Shown here: one piece after another, positions 51,205 to 57,216 of the stretch
Layout of the letters: the number at the start of each line of letters is the position of its first letter
Numbering within the stretch: the stretch's first letter is position 1
From: an uncultured Alphaproteobacteria bacterium
GTDB taxonomy: Bacteria > Pseudomonadota > Alphaproteobacteria > HIMB59 > GCA-002718135
Direction of reading: 5' to 3'
DNA: 64,000 nt
Assembly: GCA_902588745.1 (NCBI GenBank)
Contig: CACIQI010000001.1
Location: forward strand, 139,924-203,923
Notes under the pieces: generated by a model
Database searches by the model: none
Seen by the model: only the letters and a program-made list of their open reading frames with translations
Told to the model about the DNA's origin: nothing
Program-made: the position numbers and the translations under genes

Positions 51205-52734
51205 CTAAGAATTTACTGAAAGATTAATAAATTGGCTGTGAGTAAGGGAATCCTTGATTATTTCGTTAAATTTGTCAGAAAAATCATTGTAATATTTTCT
51301 TGATGTTGATCGTAAATCATATTTGCTCATTTGTTCTCTTGCGGATTCCTTACTTAATAAACCAAGACCATCAACGACTGGGTAGTATAACTGTGATTGT
51401 ACATGGGGAAGACCAGAGAGATAATCATCAAAATGATCAAGACTTGGAAGTTCATCTTGCCATAAAGAAATAAATTTTTTTGTTTCTTCGCTTATACATT
51501 CATCTGCAACGTATTGCCAAAATTTGGAGTCTCTTCTTTTGGAAACATAGTGCATATTTAAAAAAGTTTTAAAATCATCAAATTGTCGTCCAATTCGATT
51601 ATTAAAATTAGATATTAATTCTTCATTATTAAAGTCCATTTCTTTCTTAAGATATTCAGTTGCAAATAAAATAATTTGAATCAAAGTACTATGAATAGAA
51701 GTAGCTTCTAAGGGTTCGAGGAAGCCAGATGATAAACCGATAGCTAAACAATTTTTAACCCAGTATTTTTCTAACCTACCACTATTAAACTTAATGTCTC
51801 GTCTTGGTTCAATTTTGTGTCCAAGAACTTTTTCTATTTCTTCTTGTGCTTGATCAGGTGAGATAAATTGATCACAATAAACATAACCAGCACCAATTCT
51901 TTCTTGTGTAGGAATTTGCCACATCCATCCATACTTTTGGGCCCAGGCTAATGTATAATTAATGTAGTTTTCTTCTTTTATATCTAAAAAAAATGGCATC
52001 GCTCTATTTACAGGAAGATTATCTTGATAAGAGATCCATTTGGTTTTGAACACATCTCCAATAATCAATTTTTTAAAACCACTACAATCAATAACTAAAT
52101 CAACATCCAATTCCAAACCGCTTTCAAAACATAGAGATGTAATTGTTCCATCTGCATTTTGTGTTGAAGATGTGTAAATATCATCAATAATCTCAATATT
52201 TTTAGATCTTTTATTTAAATAGCTTGCAACTTGAGAATTATCAAAATGATATGCATAATAAAATGGGCTTATTAGTTCTAAATTATTATTTTTAAAAGTA
52301 TAAGGTACTTTTTTATTTTGCATAAGCATTGTATGCAAATGAATTTCAGAAACTGGTCTTCCAGCAGCGACAGCATATGCTTTTAAATATTCAAAATTTT
52401 CTGGTTTATTTTTTGGAGCAATTAATTGCGGATCATCTATAGGTCCATAATACGTATACCCTAATTCTTTCCAGTCTTTATGTACTATTCCAAATTTTAA
52501 TGTAGCTTTTGTTTCTTTCAAAAAATCAGATTCATCTAAATTATATTTTTTTAAAAATTCATAAAATATACTGGTAGTCCCCTCTCCAACACCAATTGTT
52601 GGTATTTTAGAAGACTCTATTATTTTAACATTTGTATTAAGTTTGTTAGAATAAAAAAAGTCACTTAATATATATGCAGCTAGCCATCCAGCAGTACCTC
52701 CACCTAAAATTACGACATTTTTTATTTCTTTCAT
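51205..52734 (-). CDS. Flavin-dependent tryptophan-halogenase family protein
   Basis: 509-residue FAD protein. GGGTAG (residues 11-16) is the dinucleotide-binding motif; Lys80 (ATLKFG) lies at the position of the catalytic lysine of PrnA-type halogenases; WMWQIP at 270-275 is the halogenase-specific WxWxIP motif; and LEPLEATS (339-346) contains the glutamate equivalent to the catalytic one. All key residues for hypohalous-acid chemistry are thus present. It follows a GH4 gene by 3 nt, which is unusual: the expected substrate, tryptophan or an indole, has no obvious link to sugars. No separate flavin reductase gene is visible in the window. Confidence 0.9.
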   Translation of the reverse strand: MKEIKNVVILGGGTAGWLAAYILSDFFYSNKLNTNVKIIESSKIPTIGVGEGTTSIFYEFLKKYNLDESDFLKETKATLKFGIVHKDWKELGYTYYGPIDDPQLIAPKNKPENFEYLKAYAVAAGRPVSEIHLHTMLMQNKKVPYTFKNNNLELISPFYYAYHFDNSQVASYLNKRSKNIEIIDDIYTSSTQNADGTITSLCFESGLELDVDLVIDCSGFKKLIIGDVFKTKWISYQDNLPVNRAMPFFLDIKEENYINYTLAWAQKYGWMWQIPTQERIGAGYVYCDQFISPDQAQEEIEKVLGHKIEPRRDIKFNSGRLEKYWVKNCLAIGLSSGFLEPLEATSIHSTLIQIILFATEYLKKEMDFNNEELISNFNNRIGRQFDDFKTFLNMHYVSKRRDSKFWQYVADECISEETKKFISLWQDELPSLDHFDDYLSGLPHVQSQLYYPVVDGLGLLSKESAREQMSKYDLRSTSRKYYNDFSDKFNEIIKDSLTHSQFINLSVNS

Positions 52735-52737
52735 TGC

Positions 52738-54222
52738 TTAAGCATCAAATTCGAATGCTTGTGCTTCCACAAGTAAAGAAGATGCTTGATCATTTTTTAG
52801 TTCTTCAGGAGATCTAGTTTTCATTCTTGCAGCACCTTTAAAATTTTTCTTTTTTACATTAGAATTTTTAATTCTCTCTAGAGCTGGTTCAATTTCGTTT
52901 TGATATTGAGGAAGCCATTTAGATTGAGCTACAATCATTTCATCTACCATAGACCAAACTTCATCAGGTGCACAAACTGCACTAACTAATGGATCTTGCA
53001 AAACTGCTAATTTTAATAAATTTAAATCTCCGTCTATTGCAGCTTTGACTGCCATTCTTTGAACATCTATCGATGTTCTACAGAGTGATGCACAGGCCAT
53101 TGGAAGCTCCACACCTTTAATCATTTTAATTCCATCTTTATCAACTGTTCCGGTACTTTCAATAACACAGTCATCTGGTAAATTTGTTATAGTACCATTA
53201 TTAACTACATTAAAATGACCACGATAAGGTCTATCTGTCTCAATTGACTCTATTATATAACTACCATGCTCAGAAGATCTTTTATGATTATTTAAATCGA
53301 TACCCGACTCACTTAAAAATTTTTCAAAGTCTTCTTCAAACCAATTTCTTTTCTCTGAAGTAACTCTTAAATATCCTCCCGTTTCGCCATGTATCCAATT
53401 GGACAAATCTATCCATTTAGGAATATCCTCAACTTTTTTTCTATACCATGGAAGATACTCGCTTAAATGGCCATTACTTTCAGTAGAAAATAAACCAAAT
53501 CTTTTCAGAATATCAATTCTTACTTTTTCTTGTTTAGAAATTTCTGGATGTCTTTCCAATGCATCTACAAGTTCTTCTTTTGATACTTTTTTTCCTTTGA
53601 ATTTCAGATCTATGTACCAGGTCATATGATTAATTCCGCTACACATATATTCAAGATCCTTAGAGTTTTCTGATCCTAATGCTTTAGAGATTAGTTTTGC
53701 ACCACCCTGAACACCGTGACATAGTCCAACAGTATTTACTTTTGCTTCTGATATTGCTGCCCAAGTGTTCATGGCCATTGGATTTGAATAATTCAAAAAC
53801 AAAGCATTTGAATCCGAATAAGATTTTATGTCTTTACAAAAATTTAAGGTTTGGGGAATATTTCTTTGACCATATAGAATTCCTCCAGCGCAAATGGTGT
53901 CCCCTACACACTGATCTACACCATATTGAAGAGGAATATTAATATCATGCTCAAATGCTTCTAGTCCTCCAATACGTGTACAATTAATTATATATTTTGC
54001 TCCCTCCAATGCTTTTTTTCTATCAGTTGATTGTTCAATAGTTGCTGGAAGATTATTAGCATCAATATCTTTTTGGATAAGTTTTGAAACAAAATTTAAA
54101 TTTTTTTCAGAGATATCGTGAAAAAAAAAATTTGTATCATGAAATTCAGGAACCTTTAGCAGATCTCTTACTAATGTTTGAGTAAATCCTATACTTCCAG
54201 CTCCAATAAAACTAACTTTCAT
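52738..54222 (-). CDS. GH4 glycoside hydrolase (alpha-galactosidase/alpha-glucuronidase group)
   Basis: NAD- and Mn-dependent family 4 hydrolase using a redox mechanism. The Rossmann motif FIGAGSIGFTQTLVRDLL, the YSNPMAM segment (about 145-151), metal ligands Cys168 and His169 in GLCHGVQ and His199 in SGINHM are all present. At 494 residues it is larger than the second GH4 in the window and differs from it throughout, so it is not a recent duplicate. Substrate could be an alpha-galactoside, alpha-glucoside or alpha-glucuronide. It is the first gene of an operon with the halogenase. Confidence 0.93.
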   Translation of the reverse strand: MKVSFIGAGSIGFTQTLVRDLLKVPEFHDTNFFFHDISEKNLNFVSKLIQKDIDANNLPATIEQSTDRKKALEGAKYIINCTRIGGLEAFEHDINIPLQYGVDQCVGDTICAGGILYGQRNIPQTLNFCKDIKSYSDSNALFLNYSNPMAMNTWAAISEAKVNTVGLCHGVQGGAKLISKALGSENSKDLEYMCSGINHMTWYIDLKFKGKKVSKEELVDALERHPEISKQEKVRIDILKRFGLFSTESNGHLSEYLPWYRKKVEDIPKWIDLSNWIHGETGGYLRVTSEKRNWFEEDFEKFLSESGIDLNNHKRSSEHGSYIIESIETDRPYRGHFNVVNNGTITNLPDDCVIESTGTVDKDGIKMIKGVELPMACASLCRTSIDVQRMAVKAAIDGDLNLLKLAVLQDPLVSAVCAPDEVWSMVDEMIVAQSKWLPQYQNEIEPALERIKNSNVKKKNFKGAARMKTRSPEELKNDQASSLLVEAQAFEFDA

Positions 54223-54294
54223 ATTTATATATCCTATACTCCCTAATATTTATTGACAATATTTAATTTATCAAAGAAATTAAAGTTTATTTAT

Positions 54295-55035
54295 ATGAGT
54301 GACATAAAGGAATTCATCTCAAATGGCTTTGTCCTAAAGAAAAAACTCTTTTCTAATGAAGAAATCAATAAATTAAATCAATATATAGCCATTAGAAAAG
54401 ATAAAGAAGAAAGTGCAAGAGAGACTAATACTTCAACTGGAAAATTAACAATGACAATGTGGAATCATCCTTCAGAGGATTTATTTGGAAAATTCTCTAC
54501 TAATGAAAGAATAGTCAAACCAATGGAAATATTCTTAAATGATGAAGTTTATCATTATCATTCTAAAATTATTTGGAAAAATCCAGGTGATGGTGGATTT
54601 GATTGGCATCAAGATTATGGTTATTGGTATCACAATGCTTGTCTTTATCCAGATATGGCATCATGTTTTATAATGTTAGATAAAGCAGATAAAGAAAATG
54701 GTTGTCTCAAAGTATTAAAGGGTTCTCATCGTGTTGGAAGAATTAGCCATGCACGATCAGACACACCCGAACAAACAGCAGATACTGAAAGAATAAGAGA
54801 ATTAGAAAAAAGACATGAGTCTGTTTATATTGAAGCAGAACCAGGAGATGCATTATTCTTTCATGCAAATCTATTGCACTCTTCTGATGCAAATAAATCA
54901 CAAAATTCTAGAAGAACATTAATAGTGTGCTTTAATACTAAATCCAATAATCCTTATAAAGAAATTGGACATGCTTCTTATAACCAGTTAAAAGTAGCAA
55001 ATCATAATTCAATTATGGAGTATAAAATTGACTAA
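54295..55035 (+). CDS. Fe(II)/2-oxoglutarate-dependent PhyH family oxygenase
   Basis: PhyH-type oxygenase of 246 residues with a complete facial triad: His105 and Asp107 in DWHQDYGYWYHN and distal His195 in LLHSSDANK, with Arg206/207 (SRRTLIV) for 2-oxoglutarate. It therefore should be catalytically active. I start at the ATG at 54295; a TTG at 54253 would add 14 residues. It is divergent from the first GH4 gene and overlaps melA by 8 nt, so it is co-translated with melA and the PanB-like gene. It probably hydroxylates a small metabolite; which one is unknown. Confidence 0.87.
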   Translation: MSDIKEFISNGFVLKKKLFSNEEINKLNQYIAIRKDKEESARETNTSTGKLTMTMWNHPSEDLFGKFSTNERIVKPMEIFLNDEVYHYHSKIIWKNPGDGGFDWHQDYGYWYHNACLYPDMASCFIMLDKADKENGCLKVLKGSHRVGRISHARSDTPEQTADTERIRELEKRHESVYIEAEPGDALFFHANLLHSSDANKSQNSRRTLIVCFNTKSNNPYKEIGHASYNQLKVANHNSIMEYKID

Positions 55036-56389
55036 ACTCACAATCATTGGTGCTGGTAGCGCAGTATTTACAAAAAATATTTTTACAGATTTAATGTTCA
55101 TTGATGATTTTAAAAAAATGGATATTGCACTTGTAGATATTGATGAAAAAAGATTAAAAATATCACATGAATTATTAGACGTAATTGCAAAAAAGTTAAA
55201 TGCATCTCCTAATATAAAATCATACACTAATAGAAAAGAAGCTTTAGCAGGTTCTGATTTTGTTCAGTCAACTATACAGGTAGGTGGATACAAACCATCA
55301 ACAGTAATCGATTTTGATATTCCAAATCAGTTTGGGTTAAAACAGACAATAGCTGATACCCTTGGTATTGGTGGAATTATGAGGGGTCTAAGAACGATTC
55401 CCGTTTTAGTAGATATTGGTAAAGACATAATGGATCTTTGTCCAAATTCTATATGGTTACAATATGTAAACCCAATGTGTTCAAATATGATAGCAATAAA
55501 TAATGCTTGCCCTGGAATTAAATCAATAGGACTTTGTCATTCTGTACAAGGAACTGCAGAAATGCTCGCGAGAGATTTAAATGAAAAAATTGAGGATATT
55601 GATTATCTATGTGCTGGAATTAACCACATGGCTTTCTATAAAAAATTTACAAAAAAGAATGGCAATGGTGGAGAAGATCTTTACCCAAAATTAAAGAAAT
55701 TAGCTGATGATATTGTTAGTGATAAAATAACATCAACTAGAAGTATAGGTAAAGATAGTGAATCAGATAAAGTACTACATGAAAAAGTAAGATACGAAAT
55801 TTTAAGACGATTTGGTTATTTTGTTACAGAGTCTAGCGAACATTTTGCTGAATACGTTCCATGGTTCATAAAGCAGAACAGACAAGATTTAATTGATCAA
55901 TATAAAATTCCCATAGAAGAATACATTGATAGATGTGAAAATAATATCAAGCTTTGGGATGACTTGGAAAAAGATATGACACCCATACATAATCAACCTC
56001 TAAAAAGAGGTAAGGAATATGCATCATACATAATGGATGCTGTAGCAAACAACAATGAAGTAACAATTAATGGTAATGTGATGAATGATGGATATATTGA
56101 TAATTTACCATCAAATTGTTGTGTCGAAGTTCCTTGTTTAATTAATTCAAAAGGTAATCAACCGCAAAAAACAGGTCACTTACCAGAGCATTTAGCAGCT
56201 TTAATGCGAACTAATATAAATGTTCAAATATTGACTGCTGAAGCTGCATTAACAAATAAAAAAGAGCACATCTATCATGCTGCAATGCTTGACCCCCTTA
56301 CTGGAGCTAATTTATCTATTGATGAAATATATGCAATGGTTGATAGGTTAATTGAAGCACATGGGAATTACTTACCCAAATATAATTAA
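55028..56389 (+). CDS. melA: Alpha-galactosidase MelA (GH4)
   Basis: 453-residue GH4 enzyme that resembles E. coli MelA closely along its length: TIIGAGSAVFTKNI, TIADTLGIGGIMR, YVNPMCSN, GLCHSVQGTAEMLARDLN (Cys170 and His171 metal ligands), CAGINHMAFY (His200), FVTESSEHFAEY and DNLPSNCCVEVPC. MelA hydrolyses melibiose and other alpha-galactosides with NAD+ and Mn2+. The start is a TTG at 55028 overlapping the PhyH gene by 8 nt, and its stop shares one base with the next ATG. The neighbouring uptake system probably brings in the substrate. Confidence 0.95.
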   Translation: MTKLTIIGAGSAVFTKNIFTDLMFIDDFKKMDIALVDIDEKRLKISHELLDVIAKKLNASPNIKSYTNRKEALAGSDFVQSTIQVGGYKPSTVIDFDIPNQFGLKQTIADTLGIGGIMRGLRTIPVLVDIGKDIMDLCPNSIWLQYVNPMCSNMIAINNACPGIKSIGLCHSVQGTAEMLARDLNEKIEDIDYLCAGINHMAFYKKFTKKNGNGGEDLYPKLKKLADDIVSDKITSTRSIGKDSESDKVLHEKVRYEILRRFGYFVTESSEHFAEYVPWFIKQNRQDLIDQYKIPIEEYIDRCENNIKLWDDLEKDMTPIHNQPLKRGKEYASYIMDAVANNNEVTINGNVMNDGYIDNLPSNCCVEVPCLINSKGNQPQKTGHLPEHLAALMRTNINVQILTAEAALTNKKEHIYHAAMLDPLTGANLSIDEIYAMVDRLIEAHGNYLPKYN

Positions 56390-57216
56390 TGTCAAAACTT
56401 ACAGTTAAAGATTTATTTGATAAAAAAGGAAAAGTTAAATTAACAGAACTATATGTAACAAATGCTTTAGAAGCATATGCAGCTGAACAAGCTGGTATAG
56501 ATATTCAAATTGTTTCATTTAAAAAAGATACATTAAGAACAGGTGTGCCTACAAATAGATGGTTTAGGGATGCACATATTAAAGATATTCGTGATGCAGC
56601 ACCAAATACATTTATGATTTATGGCCTTGGTCAATTGTCTTCTCCAGATAAAGCAATTGATGCTGCTCTTATTGCAAGGGAAAATGGGGCCGATGCAGTT
56701 TATTGCGGTAATAGTCCAAAATATATAGAAGCTCTTCGAAATGAAGGATTGCCAGCTGTCAGTCATATAGGCTTAATACCTTATAAAAGTACATGGACTG
56801 GTGGTTTTAAAGCAGTAGGAAAAGATGCTATTTCCGCCTACAAAGTTTATCAAGATGCTTTGGCATACGATCAAGCAGGTGCAATTGGTCTTGAGGTAGA
56901 ATGCGTGCCAGATAGAGTTGCAGAAATTATTACAAAAAAAGTTAATTTATTAACGTTATCTATGGGAAGTGGTCCTAAATGTGATGTTGAGTTTTTATTT
57001 ATTCAAGATGTTATAGGTACTAATACTGATAGAGTGCCTCGTCACGCAAAAGTATTTAAGGATACAAATAAATCCTATGAGCAGCTATTAGTTGATACAA
57101 TAGAAGGACTTAAAAATTTTGTGAAGGATGTAAATAATAAAAAATTTCCAACTCCATCAAATATTGTAGAAATAAAAGATGAAGAGTTTGAAAAATTTTT
57201 AAATAAGATTGGTTAG
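56389..57216 (+). CDS. PanB-like (ketopantoate hydroxymethyltransferase family) protein lacking expected metal ligands
   Basis: 275-residue TIM-barrel protein of the PEP mutase/PanB superfamily. Similarity to PanB is clear in the second half: AVSHIGLIPYKST, GGFKAVGKDAISAY, the GLEVECVP motif with the equivalent of catalytic Glu181 (here Glu171), SMGSGPKCDVEF and FIQDVIG. In the first half, where PanB has metal ligands in VGDSL, VADLPF and KLEGG, I see IVSFKKD, IYGLGQ and VYCGNS instead. It is therefore probably not a normal pantothenate enzyme. It overlaps melA by 1 nt, suggesting a role in the same pathway. Its 3' end overlaps the convergent hydrolase gene. Confidence 0.78.
   Translation: MSKLTVKDLFDKKGKVKLTELYVTNALEAYAAEQAGIDIQIVSFKKDTLRTGVPTNRWFRDAHIKDIRDAAPNTFMIYGLGQLSSPDKAIDAALIARENGADAVYCGNSPKYIEALRNEGLPAVSHIGLIPYKSTWTGGFKAVGKDAISAYKVYQDALAYDQAGAIGLEVECVPDRVAEIITKKVNLLTLSMGSGPKCDVEFLFIQDVIGTNTDRVPRHAKVFKDTNKSYEQLLVDTIEGLKNFVKDVNNKKFPTPSNIVEIKDEEFEKFLNKIG

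Follow-up and report, generated by a model that had tools for sequence, protein, structure and literature searches.

The window, by which we mean the whole 64,000-nucleotide stretch of DNA that was analysed from an uncultured alphaproteobacterium, encodes a member of a separate protein family derived from ketopantoate hydroxymethyltransferase (PanB, EC 2.1.2.11), in which the residues for metal and keto-acid binding have been lost and whose genes recur beside oxygenase genes. Gene order strongly indicates that these PanB-like proteins serve pathways containing an oxygenase, and the family probably represents the PanB fold with different partners and a different reaction. Regarding that reaction, we consider it an even call that the PanB-like proteins are PanB descendants that would load tetrahydrofolate (THF) with the one-carbon unit from oxidised O-methyl groups.

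The PanB-like gene occupies positions 56389–57216 of the window on the plus strand and encodes, from an ATG start, a protein of 275 residues without the PanB metal ligands. The preceding gene encodes a melA-like GH4 glycosidase (55028–56389, plus strand; NF011657, 595.6 bits against a cut-off of 486), and, as the first-pass annotation had observed, the two genes share one base, with the melA-like frame ending on the first base of the PanB-like frame (junction TAATG). The melA frame in turn overlaps by 8 bases an open reading frame for a PhyH-family 2-oxoglutarate/Fe(II) oxygenase (54253–55035, plus strand; PF05721, E 4.9e-32), which was taken from a TTG codon and may start later, and which displays an HxD...H pattern plus a subsequent Arg that we take to be the PhyH oxygenase motif. 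A second GH4 gene (52738–54222, minus strand) diverges from the PhyH gene and also lies beside PhyH in several relatives; we list it as context, its membership in the locus being unsure. A gene for a tryptophan-halogenase-family flavoprotein (51205–52734, minus strand; PF04820, E 3e-106) comes directly after this GH4 gene and is followed in turn by genes for a family-5 solute-binding protein and its transporter; such a flavoprotein is an unusual partner for a glycosidase. Comparison with 18 orthologues indicates that the PanB-like gene is under purifying selection (dN 0.018–0.138, dS 0.11–1.49).

The kinship with PanB that had been proposed from the sequence was confirmed, but not its restriction to the second half of the protein: the Pfam model PF02548 matches residues 3–255 (E 1.8e-38), which indicates that the kinship spans the entire protein. 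Neither NCBIfam PanB model reached its cut-off, the scores being 107 bits (cut-off 207.55) and 116.6 bits (cut-off 272). An AlphaFold2 model built from 14 sequences reached a pLDDT of 83.6 and a pTM of 0.83, with residues 46–58, the loop past the position of D45, falling below a pLDDT of 50. When this model was compared with known structures, six PanB entries scored Z 23.3–30.0 and the best non-PanB entry Z 16.6, which shows that the predicted structure is a PanB-type barrel and not merely that of some PEP-mutase relative. Superposition on E. coli PanB (1m3u) gave Z 28.5 and an rmsd of 2.8 over 244 residues at 21% identity.

To describe the active site, we numbered a 145-row alignment on E. 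coli K-12 PanB (row L174) and based the column table and the tree on the 85 rows that were left after dropping rows at least 85% alike. In the E. coli enzyme, we take D45, D84 and E114 to be the metal ligands, S46 and K112 to bind the keto acid, and H136 and E181 to be catalytic or active-site residues. The window protein carries F44, K45, G79, Y105 and G107 in place of D45, S46, D84, K112 and E114, respectively, and retains H136 as H126 and E181 as E171. Across the family, D84, K112 and E114 are each found in 0 of 42 PanB-like rows and D45 in 1 of 42, whereas all four are present in 37 of 37 canonical PanBs; Ser or Thr at position 46 is likewise found in 1/42 PanB-like rows and 37/37 canonical ones. 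Before thinning, the counts for D84, K112, E114 and D45 among 93 distinct PanB-like members were 0, 0, 0 and 1. An Asp stands one column past the D45 position in 16 of the 42 rows, where it is possibly a remnant of that ligand; neither this shifted Asp nor the single row with D45 restores the other ligands, which leaves the reading unchanged. The stretch from 45 to 68 comprises 24 residues in canonical rows, 20 in the clade of the window and 3–20 in the PanB-like family, where it is usually shorter. Two predictions of the first-pass annotation, that the metal ligands were lost and that the catalytic Glu was kept, thus hold for the family as well as for the window, and two Asp and one Glu did not reappear in either the 145-row alignment or the profile alignments made with five PanB chains.

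Other parts of the PanB site have been conserved. H136, G138, P141, G174, E181, G203 and D217 (E. coli numbering) are present in 42/42 PanB-like rows and in all rows of both sides of the tree; the codons for the window's H126 (56764–56766, plus strand) and E171 (56899–56901, plus strand) thus specify residues found in 42/42 PanB-like and 43/43 other rows. Three further residues are invariant in the family, namely E169 (V179 in E. coli; codon 56893–56895, plus strand; 42/42), F204 and H219 (F229 in E. coli), which brings the invariant polar residues to H126, E169, E171, D199, D207 and H219. The only lysines kept in at least 80% of the 42 rows are K13 and K145.

We searched 289 genomes, sampled class-wide and including the genus and order of the window, with a profile of 12 PanB-like members, listing matches to E 1e-25. 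Sixteen of these genomes hold PanB-like members at 247 bits or more, and the other listed matches score at most 176 bits. In a maximum-likelihood tree of the 85 non-redundant rows, two of which derive from short contigs of metagenome bins carrying the labels Ilumatobacter and Gammaproteobacteria, all 42 PanB-like members fall on one side of a branch with 100/100 support, which establishes a distinct subfamily of PanB origin that includes the window protein. The family also occurs in 270 plasmid records. The annotated rows examined call its members 3-methyl-2-oxobutanoate hydroxymethyltransferase, and a pantothenate GO term is attached to several of them; this annotation looks wrong.

An intermediate group of PanBs (loci L106–L112; genomes G244, G123, G124, G146, G241, G164 and G088) is the first to split off within the canonical part of the tree. 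In 6/6 intermediate rows D84 is replaced by Cys or Ser and E114 by Gln, and Glu stands at 179, so that the replacement of these two ligands and the Glu are common to the intermediates and the PanB-like family; in contrast, the intermediates keep D45, S46 and K112, and they have Phe at 229 where the PanB-like family has His. This residue pattern suggests how the PanB site may have been dismantled. Among the intermediates, L108 adjoins a PhyH gene, L112 an FA-hydroxylase gene (by Pfam) and L106 a methyltransferase gene. An oxygenase as the regular partner of this group was rejected, since custom HMMs found one in 2/7 loci, one of them a 36-bit match, and Pfam added L112 as a third.

We examined the neighbours of the PanB-like genes in the 16 class-sampled genomes by counting Pfam matches to desaturases (PF00487), PhyH (PF05721) and FA-hydroxylases (PF04116) within 3 kb. 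Such an oxygenase gene lies near 14 of 22 PanB-like genes, compared with 1.16 expected given how many such genes there are, and near 1 of 12 other PanBs in the same genomes, where 0.48 was expected; that one case is an intermediate, and the canonical PanBs give 0/11. In the genus of the window (G000, the window's own genome, and G220), 8/8 PanB-like genes have an oxygenase, and beyond it 6/14 do, against about 0.36 expected. Of the 8/22 PanB-like genes without an oxygenase within 3 kb, three are on contigs lacking any such match. Over all loci, custom HMMs found an oxygenase by 63/81 distinct PanB-like genes and by 1/39 canonical genes, the latter a weak 38.7-bit PhyH match 2.6 kb away; this count is not independent, as the HMMs were seeded from family neighbours and the loci chosen for sequence diversity. 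The same HMMs placed a MocE ferredoxin by 40/81 PanB-like and 0/39 canonical genes. PurU was found by 6/81 PanB-like genes and 0/39 canonical ones, and was rejected as a family-wide partner on account of its small number; MelA was rejected in the same role because it is confined to the clade of the window.

The gene orders behind these counts are varied. On many rhizobial plasmids, mocD-mocE-mocF-PanB-like recurs, with purU following next in four of the loci examined (L056, L058, L062 and L190), three of which also have mocB- and mocR-like genes alongside according to their annotation; in one rhizobial locus iolG follows the PanB-like gene. MocF is missing from two other loci in which MocD and MocE accompany the PanB-like gene, and a Bradyrhizobium row reads ribokinase, PanB-like, sterol desaturase, Rieske, sugar-isomerase-like, FAD reductase, with two of the Bradyrhizobium records carrying an identical PanB-like protein. 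Within the window's own genome, the paralogue on contig C13 lies among MocF, MocE, MocD and FA-hydroxylase genes, and a tandem PanB-like pair on contig C4 lies between PhyH genes. A tandem PanB-like pair with three PhyH genes around it lies at L115 (7217–11351), with L048 and L129 in relatives. At L123 (6594–8030) an aldehyde dehydrogenase gene (PF00171) stands between MocD and the PanB-like gene, and L130 (7055–8491) has the same arrangement, judged by position, length and a similar start. At L104 (4857–15661) the PanB-like gene is part of what looks like an inositol-type catabolic cluster, along with PurU, MocE and genes resembling Gfo/Idh and sugar isomerases.

Within the clade of the window, melA directly adjoins the PanB-like gene in 19/20 orthologous loci (18/19 in L006–L024, plus L175; window included), and in the window melA is the nearest partner, with the oxygenase one gene further. 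Of the 12 loci whose sequence extends far enough, 8 have PhyH and/or MocD immediately upstream of melA (G000, G003, G023, G034, G220, G027, G016 and G028), the order in G220 being PhyH, MocD, MelA, PanB-like. Sugar-ABC-transporter-like genes, 25–32% identical to window genes, replace the oxygenase in G031, G024 and G008, and both the oxygenase and melA are absent in G026. Because the upstream oxygenase is lacking in 4/12 loci, the oxygenase link is looser here than the clade's position in the family might lead one to expect. The suggestion that the enzyme acts on a sugar or a sugar-derived keto acid is less well supported: the melA link speaks for it within the clade, but the keto-acid and metal residues are gone and the partner of the family at large is an oxygenase.

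The reaction scheme that we propose begins with an oxygenase, which may be a PhyH dioxygenase, an enzyme of the FA-hydroxylase type, or a MocD-type desaturase served by a Rieske ferredoxin and a reductase. It would hydroxylate an O-methyl substituent on a sugar or cyclitol, giving R-O-CH2OH, and the PanB-like enzyme would pass the CH2 unit, taken from nascent formaldehyde or directly from the hemiacetal, to THF to yield 5,10-methylene-THF. PanB itself makes ketopantoate from ketoisovalerate and CH2-THF, and the proposed step would be the folate half-reaction of PanB minus the keto acid, with the barrel, His136 and Glu181 retained. PurU, where present, would convert 10-formyl-THF to formate and THF. 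The moc-type and iolG neighbours suggest an O-methylated cyclitol or sugar as substrate; for the window, our guess is that an O-methylated galactoside-type substrate might be handled by a pathway of PhyH, the melA-like enzyme and the PanB-like protein. The PhyH and desaturase families catalyse many other reactions, and we know of no THF-bound PanB structure. Going by the residue pattern, in which the enolate-making part appears lost and the rest kept, formaldehyde-THF transfer would be a better fit than an aldolase. Our more specific reading, which we hold tentatively and at somewhat less than even confidence, is that the family comprises dedicated THF-dependent formaldehyde-capture enzymes or direct hemiacetal-to-THF methylene transferases, which would have arisen from PanB through loss of the keto-acid portion of its active site and would pair with membrane desaturase/hydroxylase-type oxygenases at some loci and with PhyH dioxygenases at others.

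Several observations bear on this folate route. A glutathione-dependent formaldehyde dehydrogenase over the cut-off was found in none of 6/6 genomes of the window's order, three of which gave weaker alcohol-dehydrogenase matches, which fits the folate route. PurU over the cut-off was likewise found in none of 4/4 genomes of that order, which counts against the proposal. As stated in the available text of PMC7073904, spontaneous condensation of formaldehyde with THF is too slow for effective assimilation, and that study weighed PanB as a promiscuous catalyst in E. coli and left room for an uncharacterised enzyme. Deleting panB together with ltaE left the formaldehyde-dependent growth of E. coli unchanged (PMC7073904, in the same text), so that ordinary PanB is not known to catalyse the formaldehyde-THF step.

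We weighed THF transfer against four other explanations, of which a genuine second ketopantoate hydroxymethyltransferase is the least credible. The PF02548 match and the names in the records would agree with such an enzyme, but the keto-acid and metal residues are absent, and the window's own genome already holds a canonical panB. That genome (G000) has five PF02548 genes, namely the canonical panB, which is on contig C2 with all ligands present, and four PanB-like genes (the window copy, the one on C13 and the tandem pair on C4), and panC is present as well. The separate canonical panB for which the first-pass annotation advised looking elsewhere in the genome was thus found, and neither of the two findings that it named as refuting its view applies here; its view that the enzyme has probably been repurposed is supported. 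Among the sampled genomes in which a PanB-like gene is the only PF02548 gene, 4/5 lack panC, which argues against pantoate synthesis; where another PanB is present, 10/11 have panC, the exception being G184. G288 (locus L098), which is 98% complete, carries panC and, apart from its PanB-like gene, no PanB, as a true PanB would predict, and is either an assembly gap or a true exception. A canonical panB, panC and aspartate decarboxylase gene stand in a row among insertion sequences on an Enterococcus faecium plasmid (L063). On the residues, the NCBIfam scores, the genome content and the panC distribution, we reject the second-PanB explanation. We also regard as very unlikely a non-catalytic oxygenase partner, such as a scaffold, chaperone or regulator: the placement of the gene beside or among oxygenase subunits would suit it, but the six polar residues listed above are invariant in 42/42 rows, and two of them, H126 and E171, match active-site residues of PanB.

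The two remaining explanations retain a catalytic role. A repurposed PEP-mutase-superfamily aldolase or lyase seems unlikely, though not far-fetched; it would make or break a carbon-carbon bond in a sugar, or in a keto acid derived from one, that the GH4 and PhyH enzymes produce. The adjoining GH4 gene in nearly all orthologous loci of the clade agrees with it, as do the ribose-type ABC transporter, ribokinase or sugar-isomerase-like genes in several family loci and the Asp one column past D45. However, with D84, K112 and E114 absent from every PanB-like row and K13 and K145 the only well-kept lysines, neither type of aldolase is easy to write, and across the family the gene is partnered by an oxygenase, in many loci together with the MocE ferredoxin. 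We hold as doubtful, and marginally less likely still, a folate-independent lyase or hydrolase that merely accelerates the collapse of the hemiacetal R-O-CH2OH into formaldehyde and the alcohol, or that deals with some other unstable product of the oxygenase. Gene order fits this equally well, and acid-base chemistry could be served by the conserved His and the two Glu; however, hemiacetals collapse unaided, and THF is suggested both by the PurU genes in six loci and by PanB's folate ancestry.

Full-text searches found, among the matches listed, no literature on a PanB-like protein beside oxygenases; a folate-cleaving side reaction of PanB is described in PMC4814558, and the available part of PMC10308909 makes no mention of pantothenate, phytanoyl, galactosidase, panB, methyl or folate. 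The PanB-like family is a concrete candidate for the uncharacterised formaldehyde-THF enzyme for which the available text of PMC7073904, which also names the formaldehyde-activating enzyme Fae, left room. If THF transfer is the true reaction, the family would supply an enzyme for the entry of formaldehyde into the folate pool, for which that text judged the spontaneous step too slow, and would add an overlooked gene to rhizopine and O-methylinositol catabolism. It would also explain how formaldehyde from methylated sugars is handled without the glutathione route in the window's order, which we presume to be marine, and would offer a ready part for synthetic methylotrophy.

Compared with PanB (E. 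coli b0134, 1m3u), the window protein has in common the full-length fold, H136, E181, D209, D217 and several glycines, but at about 20% identity it lacks D45, S46, D84, K112 and E114, and the PanB-like proteins have Glu at 179, His at 229 and oxygenase neighbours. In the rhizopine operon, MocDEF removes the methyl group of rhizopine, and the PanB-like gene stands next after mocF in several rhizobial loci. Homologues of MocD, MocE and MocF flank the C13 paralogue, whereas no MocD oxygenase, MocE ferredoxin or MocF reductase lies beside the window copy, which has PhyH and GH4 instead. The available parts of two studies state that mocDEF is needed for rhizopine catabolism and name the rhizopine genes mocDEF, mocR, mocBA and mocC, with the PanB-like gene and purU unnamed there (PMC10107442, PMC3538637). 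If our reading is true, the PanB-like enzyme would do the same job as Fae, the capture of formaldehyde on a pterin carrier, and would be its natural THF counterpart, turning a toxic demethylation into a one-carbon gain. Fae itself has a fold that differs from that of PanB and uses tetrahydromethanopterin, not THF.
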